Of a stretch of 64,000 nt of DNA, positions 3,766 to 47,505 are shown piece by piece. Under the pieces are notes generated by a model, which saw only the letters and a program-made list of their open reading frames with translations, ran no database searches and had not been told where the DNA came from. The translations under genes and the position numbers were made by a program. How positions within the stretch are numbered: position 1 is the first letter of the stretch; every line of letters starts with the position of its first letter. The DNA comes from Ruegeria arenilitoris (GTDB lineage Bacteria > Pseudomonadota > Alphaproteobacteria > Rhodobacterales > Rhodobacteraceae). The stretch is from contig NZ_WPZQ01000004.1 of assembly GCF_013030265.1 (NCBI RefSeq), positions 310,001-374,000 of the forward strand. Direction: 5' to 3'.

Positions 3766-4251
3766 ATGACACAGGTCTCAATGACCGTGAACGGAAAGTC
3801 CGTGAGCGGTGATGTCGAGGGCCGGACTTTGCTGTCCAGCTTTCTACGTGAACACCTGTCGCTGACCGGAACGCATGTCGGATGCGATACTGCACAATGC
3901 GGCGCATGCGTGGTGCATGTGAATGGCGAGGCGGTAAAATCCTGCAACATGCTGGCGCTTGAAGCAAACGGCGCGGATGTGGGCACGATTGAAGGGCAGG
4001 CCAACGCGGATGGTTCGCTGAATGTGATCCAACAAGCGTTTCAGGATCATCATGGTTTGCAATGCGGTTTTTGCACACCGGGAATGGTGATGAGCGCAGC
4101 GGCCCTGCTGAAAGAGAATCCGCGCCCGACAGAATCCGAAATACGTAAGTATCTGGAGGGCAATCTGTGTCGCTGTACCGGATACCACAACATCGTCAAA
4201 GCGATCATGGCCGCATCCGGTCAGGACGTCAGCAGCATCGCTGCGGAATGA
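3766..4251 (+). CDS. coxS: CO-dehydrogenase-family small subunit, [2Fe-2S] protein
   Basis: At 161 residues this is the normal size for the iron-sulfur subunit of molybdenum hydroxylases. The plant-type [2Fe-2S] cluster is ligated by C40, C45, C48 and C60. The second cluster is ligated by C100, C103, C135 and C137 (QCGFCTPGM and LCRCTGY). It passes electrons from the molybdenum centre of the large subunit to FAD in the medium subunit. The ATG follows GGGAGGAG. The gene order S-L-M is the one usual for form II (BMS-type) enzymes; form I operons use M-S-L. Confidence 0.93.
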
Positions 4252-40528: not shown

Positions 40529-43500
40529 ATGAAGATTGAAAGAAAATTTACCAAACCGGGGCGGGATGCATATGCAGAGCTCGATTTTGTGTCAGCCACC
40601 TCGGAAATCCGCAATCCCGACGGGACAATCGTATTTCGGCTGGACAACATTGAGGTGCCTTCCAGCTGGAGTCAGGTAGCCAGCGACGTCATCGCCCAGA
40701 AATACTTCCGCAAAGCGGGCGTTCCATCCAAGCTGAAAAAAGTAAAAGAGAAAGACGTCCCCGAATTCCTGTGGCGCTCGGTTCCGGCTGATGGCGCGGA
40801 CTTCGATGGTGAGACCTCTTCCAAGCAAGTGTTCGACCGTTTGGCGGGCGCTTGGGCTTACTGGGGCTGGAAAGGCGGCTATTTCTCGACCGAGGAAGAC
40901 GCGCGCGCCTATTTTGACGAGATGCGCTATATGCTGGCAACCCAGCGCGCTGCGCCGAACAGCCCGCAGTGGTTCAACACCGGTCTGCACTGGGCCTATG
41001 GAATCGACGGCCCCGCACAGGGGCACCACTATGTCGACTACAAGACCGGCAAGCTGACCAAATCGAAATCAGCTTACGAGCATCCGCAGCCGCACGCCTG
41101 CTTCATCCAGTCCGTCGATGATGATCTGGTGAACGAAGGCGGTATTATGGATCTGTGGGTGCGCGAGGCGCGCCTGTTCAAATATGGCTCGGGTACCGGG
41201 ACCAACTTCAGCCATCTGCGCGCAGAAGGCGAAGCGCTGTCGGGTGGCGGCAAGTCTTCGGGCCTCATGGGCTTTCTCAAGATCGGCGACCGCGCCGCTG
41301 GCGCGATCAAATCAGGCGGAACAACCCGTCGAGCAGCAAAGATGGTGATCGTCGATGCAGATCACCCGGACATCGAGCAATTCATCGAATGGAAGGTGAT
41401 CGAAGAGCAGAAGGTGGCCTCGATCGTTGCCGGATCAAAGATGCACGAGAAGATGCTGAACGGCATTTTCGAGGCCATCCGCAGCTGGGACGGCGCGCAG
41501 GATGATGCGTATGAACCCAATAAGAACGACAGCCTGAAGAAGGCAGTTCGCGAAGCCAAAAAGGTCGCGATCCCAGAGACTTACATCAAGCGTGTTCTCG
41601 ATTACGCCAGGCAGGGTCACGACAGTATCGAGTTCCCGACCTACGACACGGACTGGGACTCGGAAGCCTACAGCTCGGTCTCGGGCCAGAACTCGAACAA
41701 CTCGATTCGCGTAACCAACGCATTCCTGACCGCAGTTGAAAAAGACGCGGATTGGGAACTGATCAACCGGACAGATGGCAAGGTTGCTCGCACCGTCAAG
41801 GCGCGGGATCTTTGGGAAAAGGTCGGCCACGCCGCATGGGCCTGTGCCGATCCGGGCATCCAGTTCCACGACACTGTGAACGAATGGCACACTTGCCCCG
41901 CAGATGGTGAGATTCGCGGCTCGAACCCGTGCTCGGAATATATGTTCCTCGATGACACTGCCTGTAACCTTGCTTCGATGAACCTGCTGACCTTCCTCAA
42001 GGATGGTGAATTCCAGGCGGCGGATTACATGCACGCTTCGCGTCTGTGGACCCTGACACTGGAAATCTCGGTGACGATGGCGCAGTTCCCGTCGAAGGAA
42101 ATCGCGCAACTGTCTTATGACTTCCGCACACTGGGTCTGGGCTATGCCAATATCGGCGGTCTGCTGATGAACATGGGCTACAGCTATGACTCGGATGAGG
42201 GGCGTTCGATCTGCGGCGCACTGACCGCGATCATGACCGGTGTGGCCTATGCGACCTCGGCGGAGATTGCAGGCGAGCTTGGCCCGTTCAAAGGCTATGA
42301 GCGCAACGCGGACCACATGCTGCGCGTCATCCGCAACCACCGCCGCGCGTCACAAGGTGTGACCGAGGGCTATGAGAAACTGGCCGTGAAGCCGGTGCCT
42401 CTGGACCACGGCAACTGCCCGGACAAGCGTCTGATCGATCTGGCCATGTCCGCTTGGGACGAGGCGCTGAGCCTCGGCGAGAAAAACGGTTACCGCAATG
42501 CGCAGGCGACCGTGATCGCGCCGACCGGCACCATCGGTCTGGTGATGGATTGCGACACGACCGGGATCGAGCCGGACTTCGCTCTGGTAAAGTTCAAGAA
42601 ACTGGCTGGTGGCGGTTACTTCAAGATCATCAACCGCTCGGTGCCTTCGGCGCTGGAAAAGCTGGGGTATTCCTCGTCTCAGATTGAAGAGATCGTCGGC
42701 TACGCGGTTGGTCACGGTACTATCGGCAACGCGCCGGGGATCAACCACACCTCGTTGACCGGTCACGGCTTTGGCCCCAATGAACTGGCCAAAGTGGACG
42801 CCGCGCTGGAAAGCGCCTTTGATATCCGGTTCGTGTTCAACCAATGGACGCTGGGTGAGGACTTCTGCACCGGCGTTCTGGGCATCCCGGCGACCAAGCT
42901 GAATGACCCGACCTTCGACCTGCTGCGCCATCTTGGCTTTACCAAGGCGGATATCGACGCGGCGAACGATCATGTCTGCGGGACCATGACGCTGGAAGGC
43001 GCGCCGCACCTGAAGGAAGAGCACTATTCGATCTTCGACTGCGCCAACCCATGCGGCAAAAAAGGCAAGCGTTTCCTTGGGGTTGATAGCCACATCACCA
43101 TGATGGCAGCGGCGCAAAGCTTCATCTCGGGTGCGATCTCGAAAACGATCAACATGCCGAATGACGCGACCATCGAGGATTGCCAGAAAGCATACGAACT
43201 CAGCTGGTCGCTGGGTGTGAAGGCCAACGCGCTGTACCGTGACGGCTCGAAACTGTCGCAGCCGCTGGCCGCGGCGCTGGTCGAGGATGACGACGAAGCG
43301 GCGGAAGTGCTGGAAAGCGGTTCGACGCAGGAAAAGGCTGTCGTTCTGGCCGAGAAGGTAATCGAAAAGGTTGTGGTCAAGGAAATGATCCGCAGCCATC
43401 GCGAAAAACTGCCCCATCGCCGCAAGGGTTACACTCAGAAGGCGATTGTGGGTGGCCATAAGGTCTATCTGCGCACCGGCGAGTTCGAAGACGGCAAGTT

Positions 43501-44158
43501 GGGCGAGATCTTCATCGATATGCACAAGGAAGGTGCTGGCTTTCGTGCGATGATGAACAACTTTGCCATCGCTGTATCGGTCGGTCTGCAATACGGCGTG
43601 CCGCTGGAAGAGTTCGTCGACGCGTTCACCTTCACCAAGTTCGAACCGGCCGGGATGGTGCAGGGCAACGACTCGATCAAGAATGCGACGTCGATCCTGG
43701 ACTACATCTTCCGTGAACTCGCCGTGTCTTATCTGGACCGCACCGATCTGGCCCATGTGAAACCCGAAGGCGCAACCTTCGATGATCTGGGCCGAGGCGA
43801 GGAAGAGGGCGTTTCGAACGTCTCGGAGATCAGCGATAGTGCTGCGACCAAGTCTTTGGAAGTTCTGAAACAAATCAGCTCAACTGGGTATCTGCGCAAG
43901 CGCTTGCCTCAGGATTTGGTGGTCTTCAACGGCGGTCAGGCCGAAGTGAATGGCATGGCTGAAACTGCAGCGCAGTTTGAAGTTCAAAGCGAAACTGCCG
44001 TCGTATCCGAGGTGGCAACCGGAATGGATGCCCGCACCAAAGCCAAGATGCAGGGTTACGAGGGCGATCCATGTGGTGAATGCGGAAACTACACATTGGT
44101 GCGCAACGGTACCTGCATGAAATGCAACACCTGCGGCGCAACAAGCGGGTGTAGCTGA
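40529..44158 (+). CDS. nrdJ: Adenosylcobalamin-dependent (class II) ribonucleotide reductase
   Basis: This 1209-residue enzyme makes deoxyribonucleotides using a B12-derived radical, with or without oxygen. The barrel active-site regions are visible: [66 protein letters not shown] and [23 protein letters not shown]. The C-terminal end has the cysteine cluster [25 protein letters not shown], a zinc-binding redox tail. The ATG at 40529 ([11 protein letters not shown]) follows AGGGCGG; the open frame 16 codons upstream lacks a ribosome site. Two NrdR-like boxes lie upstream. The gene is about 60-65 percent GC, unlike the gene after it. Confidence 0.96.
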
Positions 44159-44178
44159 GGTGTGGATGTGAGGGTTTC

Positions 44179-45108
44179 ATGATGAGCAAATCAGTTGCAC
44201 GAATGCCCAAAAGGGCACAGGTATCGAACCCAGATCAGGGTGTCTTAGACCTCGCCGTTGAGTGCCAAATCGAAAGTGATGGAGTAGGAATGGGGGTCCT
44301 CAAGGACGGCACCCCTTTCTTAAATCAGCGTGGGCTTGCAAGACTGTGCGGGGTTCAAAACAAGTATATTGGCCTTATATCCTCGGGATGGGATAGCTCC
44401 GAACCCAGCGCTGCGGTTAAGCGAATTAAGGAAATCCTGTTTGAACAGGGTGTCGATTTCAGCACCGCAGCTCACGAGACTTTCTTCGGAAATGTTCGAG
44501 TTCTGGCATACCCAGATGAAATCTGCATGGCGACCTTGGAGTACTACGCCTTTGAGGCGAACTTACAGGGACAATCCATAGCTCTCGACAGCTATCGTCG
44601 CCTAAGCCGCTTTGGCCTAAAGCAGTACATCTACACCCGGACTGGGTATTCCAATCGTCAAGAAGAAGACATGTGGCGTATCTTCAAAGATCGCGTCAGT
44701 CTTACTTACGACGCTGTCCCTGAGGGTTTCTTTGGTGTGTTTAAAGAACTAGCAGACCTTATCGTCACATTGGGAATGAAAGGACTGCACATCGACGAGA
44801 AGTTTGTGCCGGACATTAGCGTTGGGCAAGCATGGTCGAAACACTGGAAAGAACGTGGTTTGGAAATGCGTTTCGGTGCACGTCGGAAATATGCCCATAA
44901 CTACCCCGATTACTTTCCACAGGCAGTTTCTAATCCGCAACTTGCGTCTTGCTACCCAGAAGATGCGCTCGGTGAATTCCGCCGTTGGTTCAGGCATGAC
45001 TACATCGGTGATGGGCGCTTCAAAAGATACCTTAGCAAAAAGGTTAAAGAGCGTGGCCTTCCAGAAGGCTACATCGAACGTGCGATGGTTGCGCTGAACA
45101 AGGAGTAG
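44179..45108 (+). CDS. Phage P63C/BstA-like protein (putative KilA-N-type N-terminus), unusual origin
   Basis: This 309-residue protein was not firmly identified. Its first half (VLKDGTPFLNQRGLARLCGVQNKYIG, then LAYPDEICMATLEYYAFEANLQG) has the layout of the phage-associated KilA-N/P63C group: a self-repressor-like LNQRGLARLCGV helix-turn-helix, a DEIC.A..EYYA helix and then TGYSNRQEEDMW. The second half (about 160-309) has FGVFKELADLIVTLGMKG and a tryptophan- and arginine-rich FRRWFRHDYIGDGRFKRYLSKK. BstA, a prophage abortive-infection protein, is one relative of this general shape. Counted lines of the gene are about 45-50 percent GC against about 65 percent in nrdJ, which suggests transfer. 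It starts 20 bases after nrdJ (GAGGG site) and is followed by a structured RNA candidate. Confidence 0.45.
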   Translation: MMSKSVARMPKRAQVSNPDQGVLDLAVECQIESDGVGMGVLKDGTPFLNQRGLARLCGVQNKYIGLISSGWDSSEPSAAVKRIKEILFEQGVDFSTAAHETFFGNVRVLAYPDEICMATLEYYAFEANLQGQSIALDSYRRLSRFGLKQYIYTRTGYSNRQEEDMWRIFKDRVSLTYDAVPEGFFGVFKELADLIVTLGMKGLHIDEKFVPDISVGQAWSKHWKERGLEMRFGARRKYAHNYPDYFPQAVSNPQLASCYPEDALGEFRRWFRHDYIGDGRFKRYLSKKVKERGLPEGYIERAMVALNKE

Positions 45109-45117
45109 CTGAGTTTA

Positions 45118-45412
45118 GCGCCCCGGCAACCCGGGGTGCAGGGGTCGGATAGCTGCCACAGGTACCGACCCCGACGAATACGGAGCAAGGCAAAGCCTGA
45201 GACTTACCAAAGGCGCCTTGTTCCACTCGGCCGACATGCCCGTGTTGGCCGGGAACAGGGTGGGGCGGAATATCAGTCCTTCCCACTCTCTCACGGGACG
45301 GGTGCGCTCGTCCCAGGCGACGTCCAGGCCGCAGGCAAAAAAACACCGGGCGGTCAACGAAATGAGCCTGGATGGCGAAACTGACAGGGGGCTTCGGCCC
45401 CCTTTCTTTTTG
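45118..45412 (+). ncRNA. Candidate structured RNA with terminator, unidentified
   Basis: This 295-base stretch, starting ten bases after the previous gene, is packed with hairpins. There is a nine-pair stem at 45118-45139 (CCCCGG/CCGGGG core), an eight-pair stem at 45141-45172 (GGGGTCGG/CCGACCCC), and a long helix at 45220-45256 (GTTCC, a three-base bulge, then 11 pairs CGGCCGACATG with CGTGTTGGCCG, closing with GGAAC). Another lies at 45295-45314 (GGGACG/CGTCCC). It ends with a perfect TTCG-loop terminator and U-tract. No plus-strand reading frame there is convincing. It resembles none of tmRNA, RNase P, SRP or 6S RNA by motif. It may be an independent RNA or a long 3' region of the phage-like gene. 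Confidence 0.5.
45386..45412 (+). terminator. Terminator of the structured RNA
   Basis: AGGGGGC and GCCCCCT pair around a TTCG loop, followed by TTCTTTTTG. Clearly oriented to the right. Confidence 0.92.
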
Positions 45413-45960: not shown

Positions 45961-47505
45961 TTATTGCGGCAAGTGAATGTTGAACTTGCTCCGAAGCTCT
46001 GCATCCAGCAGCGGGTCAAATCGCGCCTGCGACGGCGTCGCAAGGATCTCTTCCTTGCGAGCAATTGCTTTTTCAATAAGATCCGGCTTGCCCAGTTCAG
46101 ACCACTCTTTCGGCGATGTCCGGTCGCCGAGTGTCGGATACACATAATCCACCTGCATACGGCCAAGAGTGGCATCAGTGCCCAGATAATGACCGGGTCC
46201 GCCAAGGCACACTTCGGCGATTTGATCCAGCGCCAGAGTGTCGTCGTTTACTTCGATTCCCCGAACACAACGAAGTGCCTGACCAATCAGATCGTCGCTG
46301 AGAATGAGGCTTTCGAAACAGAATCCCAGCAGGGATGAATGCATACCGGCCGCTTCATAGACCATGTTCAGACCTGACAGACCGGCCATGACGTTCGAAC
46401 ACATCTGTTCCCAGCCAGCCTGCATATCGGGGAGTTTTGCATCGGATGCGCCTGCAGCTGCACCGCCTGGCAGTCCGTAGAACTTATGCATCTGAGCGCA
46501 CCCTGCACTCAAAAGCGCTTGTTCACCGGAACCTACCGACATCGCTCCGGTACGCAAATCCAGACCAAAGGGCCAAGTGCCAAAAATCGCGGGGGCACCG
46601 GGTTTTACGGCATTTACATAAACCAAACCAGCCAGGCATTCCGCGGTTGCCTGAGTGATTGCTCCGGCGATTGTAGACGGCGCGGTTGCACCCGCCATAC
46701 CTGCGGAAAGCAGCAGAACAGGCATACCGGCCTTGATGCATTCCTCCATAACTTCGCAGCTTTCAGTTGCGAATTTCATTGGTGGAACGACAAAGCAGTT
46801 GGAGTTCGACACAAATGGACGTTCGCGCCACTTGTCTTCACCGCCAGCGATCATGTGCAGCATTTCCACCGCCGGAGCGACATAGCTGGGATCGGTGAAC
46901 GATGTACCAATATGTTTGAATGTACCCGAACAGCAAGCATAGATGGTGTTCAGATCCATCTCGCGGTTGTCCAGAATGTCACGGCAAACCATCGGACGCT
47001 GAACGAAATGGATATTGTCCAGACTATCGCAGATACGGGATGCGTCATGCAGGTCCTGAACCGTTGAATCACGGTACTCGCGACCATGCACATCGACCAT
47101 GTGTACTGCAGCGCCGGCGGTTCCATAGTGGACGCGGTTGCCCGAAAGCTCGAGGTCAGTTTTGCCATCACGGCTATAAAGCGTGACCGAACGGTTTGCT
47201 TTGGCCAGCATGTCCTCGACCAATGCGCGCGGGAAGCGGATACGTCCGTCATCCCCGAGAATACAGCCTGCGCCGACCAGATAGTCGATGCCGCTTTGCG
47301 GTGCATCGGCAAGGCCGATCGTCTCAAGTGCTGTCAGGGCGGCGTTGTGTATACGCTCCATATCCTGCTGGCTGAGAGGTTTGTATGTGCCACCTTCCAT
47401 GCCTGGGCGTACAGGGCGCAGGTGGTCGGGCAGGGCGGCGGCACGCGCTGCACGACGGGCAGAGCGTCCGCCGCTACGAGAAGAGCTACGGGATTGATCG
47501 TTCAT
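45961..47505 (-). CDS. MttB family corrinoid methyltransferase, non-pyrrolysine type
   Basis: This 514-residue TIM-barrel protein belongs to the trimethylamine methyltransferase (MttB/COG5598) family. Recognisable segments are GGTYKPLSQQDMERIHNAAL, YGTAGAAVHMVD, MPVLLLSAGMAGATAPSTIAGAITQATAECLAGLVYVN and LGGPGHYLGTDATLGRMQVDYVYP. The frame has no in-frame stop codon, so it uses no pyrrolysine. Such homologues demethylate glycine betaine, proline betaine, carnitine or similar quaternary amines onto a corrinoid protein. No corrinoid protein or tetrahydrofolate methyltransferase gene is adjacent. The N-terminus (RSSSRSGGRSARRAARAA) is arginine- and serine-rich, unusual but often seen in Rhodobacteraceae members. 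Confidence 0.88.
   Translation of the reverse strand: MNDQSRSSSRSGGRSARRAARAAALPDHLRPVRPGMEGGTYKPLSQQDMERIHNAALTALETIGLADAPQSGIDYLVGAGCILGDDGRIRFPRALVEDMLAKANRSVTLYSRDGKTDLELSGNRVHYGTAGAAVHMVDVHGREYRDSTVQDLHDASRICDSLDNIHFVQRPMVCRDILDNREMDLNTIYACCSGTFKHIGTSFTDPSYVAPAVEMLHMIAGGEDKWRERPFVSNSNCFVVPPMKFATESCEVMEECIKAGMPVLLLSAGMAGATAPSTIAGAITQATAECLAGLVYVNAVKPGAPAIFGTWPFGLDLRTGAMSVGSGEQALLSAGCAQMHKFYGLPGGAAAGASDAKLPDMQAGWEQMCSNVMAGLSGLNMVYEAAGMHSSLLGFCFESLILSDDLIGQALRCVRGIEVNDDTLALDQIAEVCLGGPGHYLGTDATLGRMQVDYVYPTLGDRTSPKEWSELGKPDLIEKAIARKEEILATPSQARFDPLLDAELRSKFNIHLPQ

Follow-up and report, generated by a model that had tools for sequence, protein, structure and literature searches.

A conserved structured RNA of the Rhodobacteraceae and probable 3′ untranslated region of nrdJ, next to an insertion hotspot

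Introduction

In Rhodobacter sphaeroides, RNase E is documented to release small RNAs from untranslated regions (PMC8625941, PMC6238624). The 3′-UTR sRNAs of this organism (SorX, PcrX, CcsR1-4, UdsB/C/D/H) share with the RNA presented here the bacterial family and the location at an mRNA 3′ end. Several of them are released by RNase E, whereas for the present RNA, which follows the ribonucleotide reductase gene nrdJ, release is what we infer. In contrast to these sRNAs, the nrdJ RNA keeps the same position in most of the family and contains a covarying multi-helix core. The main text of the two R. sphaeroides papers does not name nrdJ.

Structured motifs located behind one gene, in a probable 3′ UTR, have also been described for the L17 downstream element and for HRC-28-1 (PMC2864571, PMC8632094). 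HRC-28-1 is a candidate structured 3′-UTR RNA comprising six stems and a terminator at its end (PMC2864571, PMC8632094). These elements have other host genes and occur in other taxa, and they are likened to the nrdJ RNA by description. A third system of interest is that of the phage-defence protein BstA, whose known immunity element, aba, is a short DNA element in the bstA locus overlapping the bstA start (PMC8585504). The locus studied here harbors a BstA homologue as well, but the RNA is unrelated to BstA whereas aba is DNA.

We analyse a window of 64,000 nucleotides from Ruegeria arenilitoris. A preliminary description of this window, made from the letters alone, had pointed to a highly structured, terminator-ended sequence directly behind a phage-type gene. 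In our assessment, positions 45109-45411 of the plus strand probably form the long structured 3′ UTR of the nrdJ transcription unit and represent a conserved RNA family of the Rhodobacteraceae. This degree of confidence refers mainly to the identity as nrdJ 3′-UTR RNA, and an explanation by action in cis only, discussed below, therefore overlaps with it.

Fold and architecture of the element

The plus strand between 45080 and 45420 folds with −172.3 kcal/mol, compared with −135.0 ± 6.4 kcal/mol for shuffled sequences (z −5.81; none of 100 shuffles was as good). The same test on the minus strand of the element region yields a z of only −1.80, and the RNA is therefore assigned to the plus strand, on which all parts described in this section lie. 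A perfect intrinsic terminator closes the element (45386-45411). It is composed of the hairpin AGGGGGCTTCGGCCCCCT (45386-45403) followed by the U-rich tail TTCTTTTT, which extends to 45411, and a terminator is retained at the equivalent place throughout the family Rhodobacteraceae. A minus-strand open reading frame across the element has no Pfam match, and reading frames are broken by indels and stops in the relatives examined. The strong structure, the terminator and the lack of a plausible open frame had all been recognised in the preliminary description.

The element (45109-45411) comprises variable 5′ hairpins, a 91-nucleotide core found family-wide and the terminator. Within the 5′ part, helix 1 (45118-45139) is formed by GCGCCCCGG and CCGGGGTGC, and three of its pairs have changed on both sides within the genus. 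Helix 2 (45141-45172), which pairs GGGGTCGG with CCGACCCC and is followed by a conserved CGACGAA, likewise has three such pairs, with exchanges that include GC/AU and CG/UA. Helix 5 (45182-45224; GGAGCAAGGC/GCCTTGTTCC) encloses the conserved loop segment GAGACTTACC and displays changes on both sides in eight of ten pairs. Helix 7 is a 12-pair hairpin (45226-45253), in which 45226-45237 pairs with 45242-45253 in relatives as well; four pairs show changes on both sides. A hairpin of 16 pairs had been proposed for 45220-45256: a hairpin does exist there, yet it has 12 pairs in relatives, and the outer GTTCC pairs upstream instead, with 45182-45191 in helix 5. Helix 8 (45257-45289; AGGGTGGGGCGGA/TCCTTCCCACTCT) is nearly invariant in the genus, nine of its 12 pairs being unvarying in 36 genomes. 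Over the whole element, 24 pairs carry changes on both sides among 36 Ruegeria sequences, against 10.6 in shuffled alignments (0 of 500 shuffles reached the observed value).

The family-wide core (45292-45382) ends with GCGAAACT. It contains a hairpin with a UGCG loop (45295-45314) and a stem (45318-45329/45366-45377) around the junction CGCAGGC...GRGCRGU, whose two segments, inside the core stem, are almost invariant. In an alignment of 62 family sequences, 98% of the cells at paired positions can pair, and 13 of 22 pairs show changes on both sides, versus 3.5 in shuffles (0 of 500); controls with slid partners gave only 1-5 such pairs. A covariance model named R1, built on this 91-nucleotide core, matches the source genome at G000:C18:355292-355382. 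Read at these two alignment depths, the covariation means that the RNA secondary structure is under selection; the hairpins of the preliminary description are thus conserved as well as covarying. Pairwise identity among Ruegeria species reaches 92% in the 3′ half of the RNA, 60% at the fourfold sites of nrdJ and 46% in the 100 nucleotides past the terminator. Judged from these substitution patterns, the 3′ half of the RNA is under purifying selection.

Comparison with known RNA families

At gathering scores, Rfam has no match on the element, and none of the known families (RNase P, tmRNA, 6S, SRP, riboswitches) was recovered. Permissive settings likewise gave no family, the scores of RAGATH-28 RNA (below) being at chance level. 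The earlier remark that typical motifs of housekeeping RNAs are absent thus holds. A housekeeping RNA was rejected on the lack of an Rfam match and on a 6S-like match elsewhere in the source genome (G000:C18:136613; 41.5 bits, just below the cut-off).

RAGATH-28 RNA (RF03052) aligns weakly over the full length of the core, with the 3′ GGAUGGCGAA segment, but has another helix layout. This identity was rejected: the score of 15.5-16.2 bits is at chance level and below the cut-off of 45.3, and 19 of 20 other cores gave no RAGATH-28 match.

A search of the literature revealed no nrdJ 3′-UTR RNA, with the proviso that supplementary tables of sRNA or motif papers may list it without a name, for example as one of the further motifs of the Rhodobacterales genome in PMC8632094. 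Absent from Rfam and from the literature searched, the RNA family of the Rhodobacteraceae is probably new.

Other parts of the window do contain Rfam matches. On the plus strand, 27197-27244 matches the Guanidine-II (mini-ykkC) riboswitch with 33.6 bits, just over the gathering score. A trimethylamine methyltransferase-type (mttB) gene is located on the minus strand at 45961-47505 and contains a PYLIS_3 match (41.4 bits); its frame is open, with no in-frame stop.

Distribution and linkage to nrdJ

The gene nrdJ (40529-44158, plus strand) encodes a class II (vitamin B12-dependent) ribonucleotide reductase (Pfam Ribonuc_red_2_N, 2.4e-41; Ribonuc_red_lgC, 4e-122) and ends with the stop codon TGA at 44156-44158. 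All 36 other Ruegeria genomes sampled contain the RNA in single copy, each time with nrdJ upstream. No gene separates the two in 31 of these congeners; in the other five, different small genes are found between them. The RNA also occurs in a strain of R. pomeroyi (L249). At greater distance, blastn with the 3′ half of the RNA gave matches in 175 of 298 family genomes (nearly one per genus). Among 149 genomes sampled from the order, the core covariance model recognised the RNA in 117, which represent 55 of 73 genera (~75%) and all belong to the Rhodobacteraceae. With strict filters, under which weak relatives may be missed, R1 yielded five matches in 385 genomes of the class, all in this family. 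Outside the Rhodobacteraceae, the RNA was not found in the genomes searched, and a pattern search of viral contigs also returned none.

A scan of GTDB genomes for the RNA pattern gave at least 120 loci. The 120 listed were chosen by the RNA pattern only, disregarding nrdJ, and they bear names of Rhodobacteraceae or Paracoccaceae, except for one record with the name Maritalea and a few alphaproteobacterial assemblies that are unplaced. The C-terminus of nrdJ lies directly upstream in 111 of them. As for the other nine, two do have nrdJ on the locus, with a match that stops before its last residues, and six are within 450 nucleotides of an edge of the retrieved sequence. The remaining locus, L198, is the one true exception among those listed, with a core that has no nrdJ upstream; this core is at 3929 on the reverse strand, behind a patatin-like gene. 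As far as this distribution tells, the position next to nrdJ is the ancestral one for the RNA. The converse dependence does not hold: among 20 family genomes in which blastn gave no match, nrdJ is present in 18 and the covariance model detects the RNA in only four, so nrdJ is present without a detectable RNA in many family genomes and therefore works without it.

Such constant proximity raises the question of how the RNA is transcribed. In many genera the core begins 8-11 nucleotides past the nrdJ stop, which leaves no intergenic room for a promoter. Identity at fourfold sites near the nrdJ end (0.65-0.66 in codons 4-33 from the end, against a mean of 0.60) is not raised, and a promoter search found no sigma-70-like promoter for the RNA. 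On the absence of a synonymous-site signal and of a promoter match, a promoter embedded in nrdJ was rejected. The same three observations speak against an independent non-coding RNA gene which would carry its own promoter inside the nrdJ end and whose place beside nrdJ would merely be inherited. This reading gains from the retention of the RNA away from nrdJ in L198 and as a second copy in the genome G754 (see below), and from the tolerance of inserted genes upstream; on balance we regard it as unlikely.

The bstA gene and its insertion

A bstA-like abortive-infection gene (44179-45108, plus strand) is located between nrdJ and the RNA. Its product matches PHROG 6287 (E 1.2e-87, residues 18-290) and PADLOC BstA (E 1.2e-109, residues 17-306) and is 42% identical to BstA of phage BTP1. 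By its full-length family match, the inserted gene, the phage-type gene of the preliminary description, is a BstA homologue. Two plus-strand copies of a 9-bp direct repeat, GTAGCTGAG, border it: the left copy (44151-44159) overlaps the nrdJ stop and the right copy (45105-45113) is at the bstA end. The insertion of 954 bp, the gap measured from the nrdJ end to the RNA start, spans equivalent points of these two copies, and relatives devoid of bstA possess a single repeat copy, GGGTGTAGCTGAGTTTAGCG. The repeat, the length of the insert and the single copy without bstA in relatives therefore identify bstA as a late insertion and the RNA as older. Between nrdJ and bstA, no terminator-like site was found on the plus strand. 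Given its position between the nrdJ stop and the RNA, bstA is therefore probably now part of the nrdJ-RNA transcript.

The preliminary description had also proposed that the RNA is a partner of the preceding protein, as a guard, antitoxin or immunity RNA. Adjacency is what would suggest this, and it holds in the source genome only. All 36 other Ruegeria genomes have the RNA and lack bstA at the nrdJ-RNA locus, so that the expected co-occurrence of RNA and phage-type gene is absent. Furthermore, bstA is rare, with ten of 298 family genomes; where the RNA is also present, bstA resides elsewhere in the genome, and in no other of the family genomes examined was it seen beside the RNA. In addition, the immunity element known for BstA consists of DNA and is part of the bstA locus (PMC8585504). 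A role as BstA partner is thus extremely improbable. The further suggestion of a long 3′ region was correct as to the 3′ region, the owner being nrdJ and not the phage-type gene.

The nrdJ-RNA junction as an insertion hotspot

At many loci, a single gene is found between the nrdJ stop and the RNA, with the RNA and its terminator intact downstream. The gap exceeds 310 nucleotides in 22 of the 111 listed loci with nrdJ upstream. Genes found at this junction elsewhere encode ImmA/IrrE-type peptidases (Pfam Peptidase_M78), DUF2188 proteins and a DUF3892-like protein. Others code for a 47-residue Ala/Lys-rich protein, GIY-YIG-like and Mrr_N-like proteins, and further products. The junction genes, many of which are of defence or toxin-antitoxin type, were seen at 44151-45113 of the window and at 17 loci (L003, L004, L009, L026, L034, L045, L062, L078, L080, L090, L143, L156, L163, L179, L230, L234 and L254).

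Some of these loci have features of their own. A second structured leader is located directly past the nrdJ stop in L004, L009, L026 and L003, and part of it in L048. It consists of a terminator-like hairpin and then ~150 nucleotides with CTGTGGATAAGGAGG at their end; the opposite strand of this segment contains a DnaA-box-like TTATCCACA. This leader precedes different small genes and, among 61 genomes, occurs solely at this site, in four Ruegeria. In G097 (L123 / L139), a second copy of the last 26 nrdJ codons lies ~0.6 kb downstream, past an ImmA/IrrE-like gene, and a long direct repeat flanks the insertion.

In G754 (L271, L272, L137, L138), a 37-kb Tn7-like island begins directly past nrdJ. 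It carries genes for TniB, TniQ, an rve-type transposase and a reverse transcriptase, and has imperfect inverted ends. Each island end has an RNA core nearby: one is situated ~0.34 kb past the nrdJ stop; a second, diverged core lies beyond tniQ. The island may be a Tn7-like element with the nrdJ 3′ end as its target. On this one case, the core copy near nrdJ would restore the 3′ UTR. A TniQ search for Tn7-like elements that target nrdJ gave relatives of 22-41% identity only, and no such element was recognised there. The simplest account of the hotspot would be an exchange of cassettes by recombination between conserved flanks, together with occasional transposon targeting of the nrdJ end.

The hairpins themselves could then be imagined as recombination signals, the RNA being an attachment site or the end of a mobile element. 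The hotspot just 5′ of the RNA, the direct repeat around bstA and, in one genome each, the Tn7-like island and the duplication of the nrdJ 3′ end are compatible with this idea. Against it, the RNA is present and intact in all congeners without inserts, and inserts spare the core and are placed at the nrdJ stop. In addition, covariation and a conserved transcription terminator indicate an RNA, as does the far better fold of the plus strand. We consider this explanation very unlikely. The attachment scar of the preliminary description is hence refuted for the RNA, while the junction just 5′ of it does attract insertions.

Proposed mode of action

Within the reading as nrdJ 3′ UTR, we infer that read-through from the nrdJ promoter is the most likely origin of the RNA, since an intergenic promoter often has no room, silent sites at the nrdJ end show no extra conservation and no promoter-like site was found. 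The RNA would act after transcription, either as a stable RNA that is released or as a 3′-UTR element that is bound. In the former scenario, an RNase E-type cleavage in unpaired linkers would leave a stable 3′-terminal RNA comprising the core, the terminator and the U-tail. This product could act as an sRNA or bind a cellular factor, and the output of the B12-dependent ribonucleotide reductase would thereby be tied to another target or to the nrdJ mRNA itself. The U-rich tail of the terminator would suit such a regulatory sRNA. We give a released, trans-acting RNA a little less than an even chance. Against the reading as nrdJ 3′ UTR, the L198 copy and the displaced G754 copy behind tniQ, both away from nrdJ, fit an independent RNA. 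Antisense autoregulation through the nrdJ start region was rejected, the core showing no signal of pairing with this region (mean z +0.08, 72 loci).

Alternatively, no RNA is released and the 3′ UTR acts in cis only, as a stability or termination element or as a factor-binding site which sets the half-life of the nrdJ mRNA. The RNA invariably closes the nrdJ unit and has a strong terminator, its core is conserved as a closed junction and not as an exposed seed, and the G754 island leaves a core copy beside nrdJ; all three agree with such a role. A terminator or a block to exonucleases, however, needs no family-wide invariant junction residues, and copies persist behind other genes (L138, L198). 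Action in cis only is a tenable but tentative explanation.

The invariant residues are located in a closed junction and not in an exposed seed. Such a location would suit a protein or ligand site no less than a classical antisense sRNA. A more specific proposal sees in the CGCAGGC...GRGCRGU junction a 3′-UTR domain that senses a ligand or a protein and would report cobalamin, nucleotide or replication state; this we hold to be speculative and rather improbable. If true, it would place a kind of sensor rarely seen in 3′ UTRs on the transcript of a B12-dependent reductase, and inserting mobile elements would have to spare the RNA or bring a substitute copy.

Significance for the Rhodobacteraceae

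The junction is a landing place for single genes of phage-defence type (BstA, ImmA/IrrE peptidases and others) and therefore offers a simple address at which to look for new defence candidates in the Rhodobacteraceae. The RNA itself is kept in single copy across most of a large, ecologically dominant family and is more conserved than the silent sites of nrdJ. It may thus serve as a directly testable handle on the post-transcriptional control of B12-dependent DNA-precursor synthesis.
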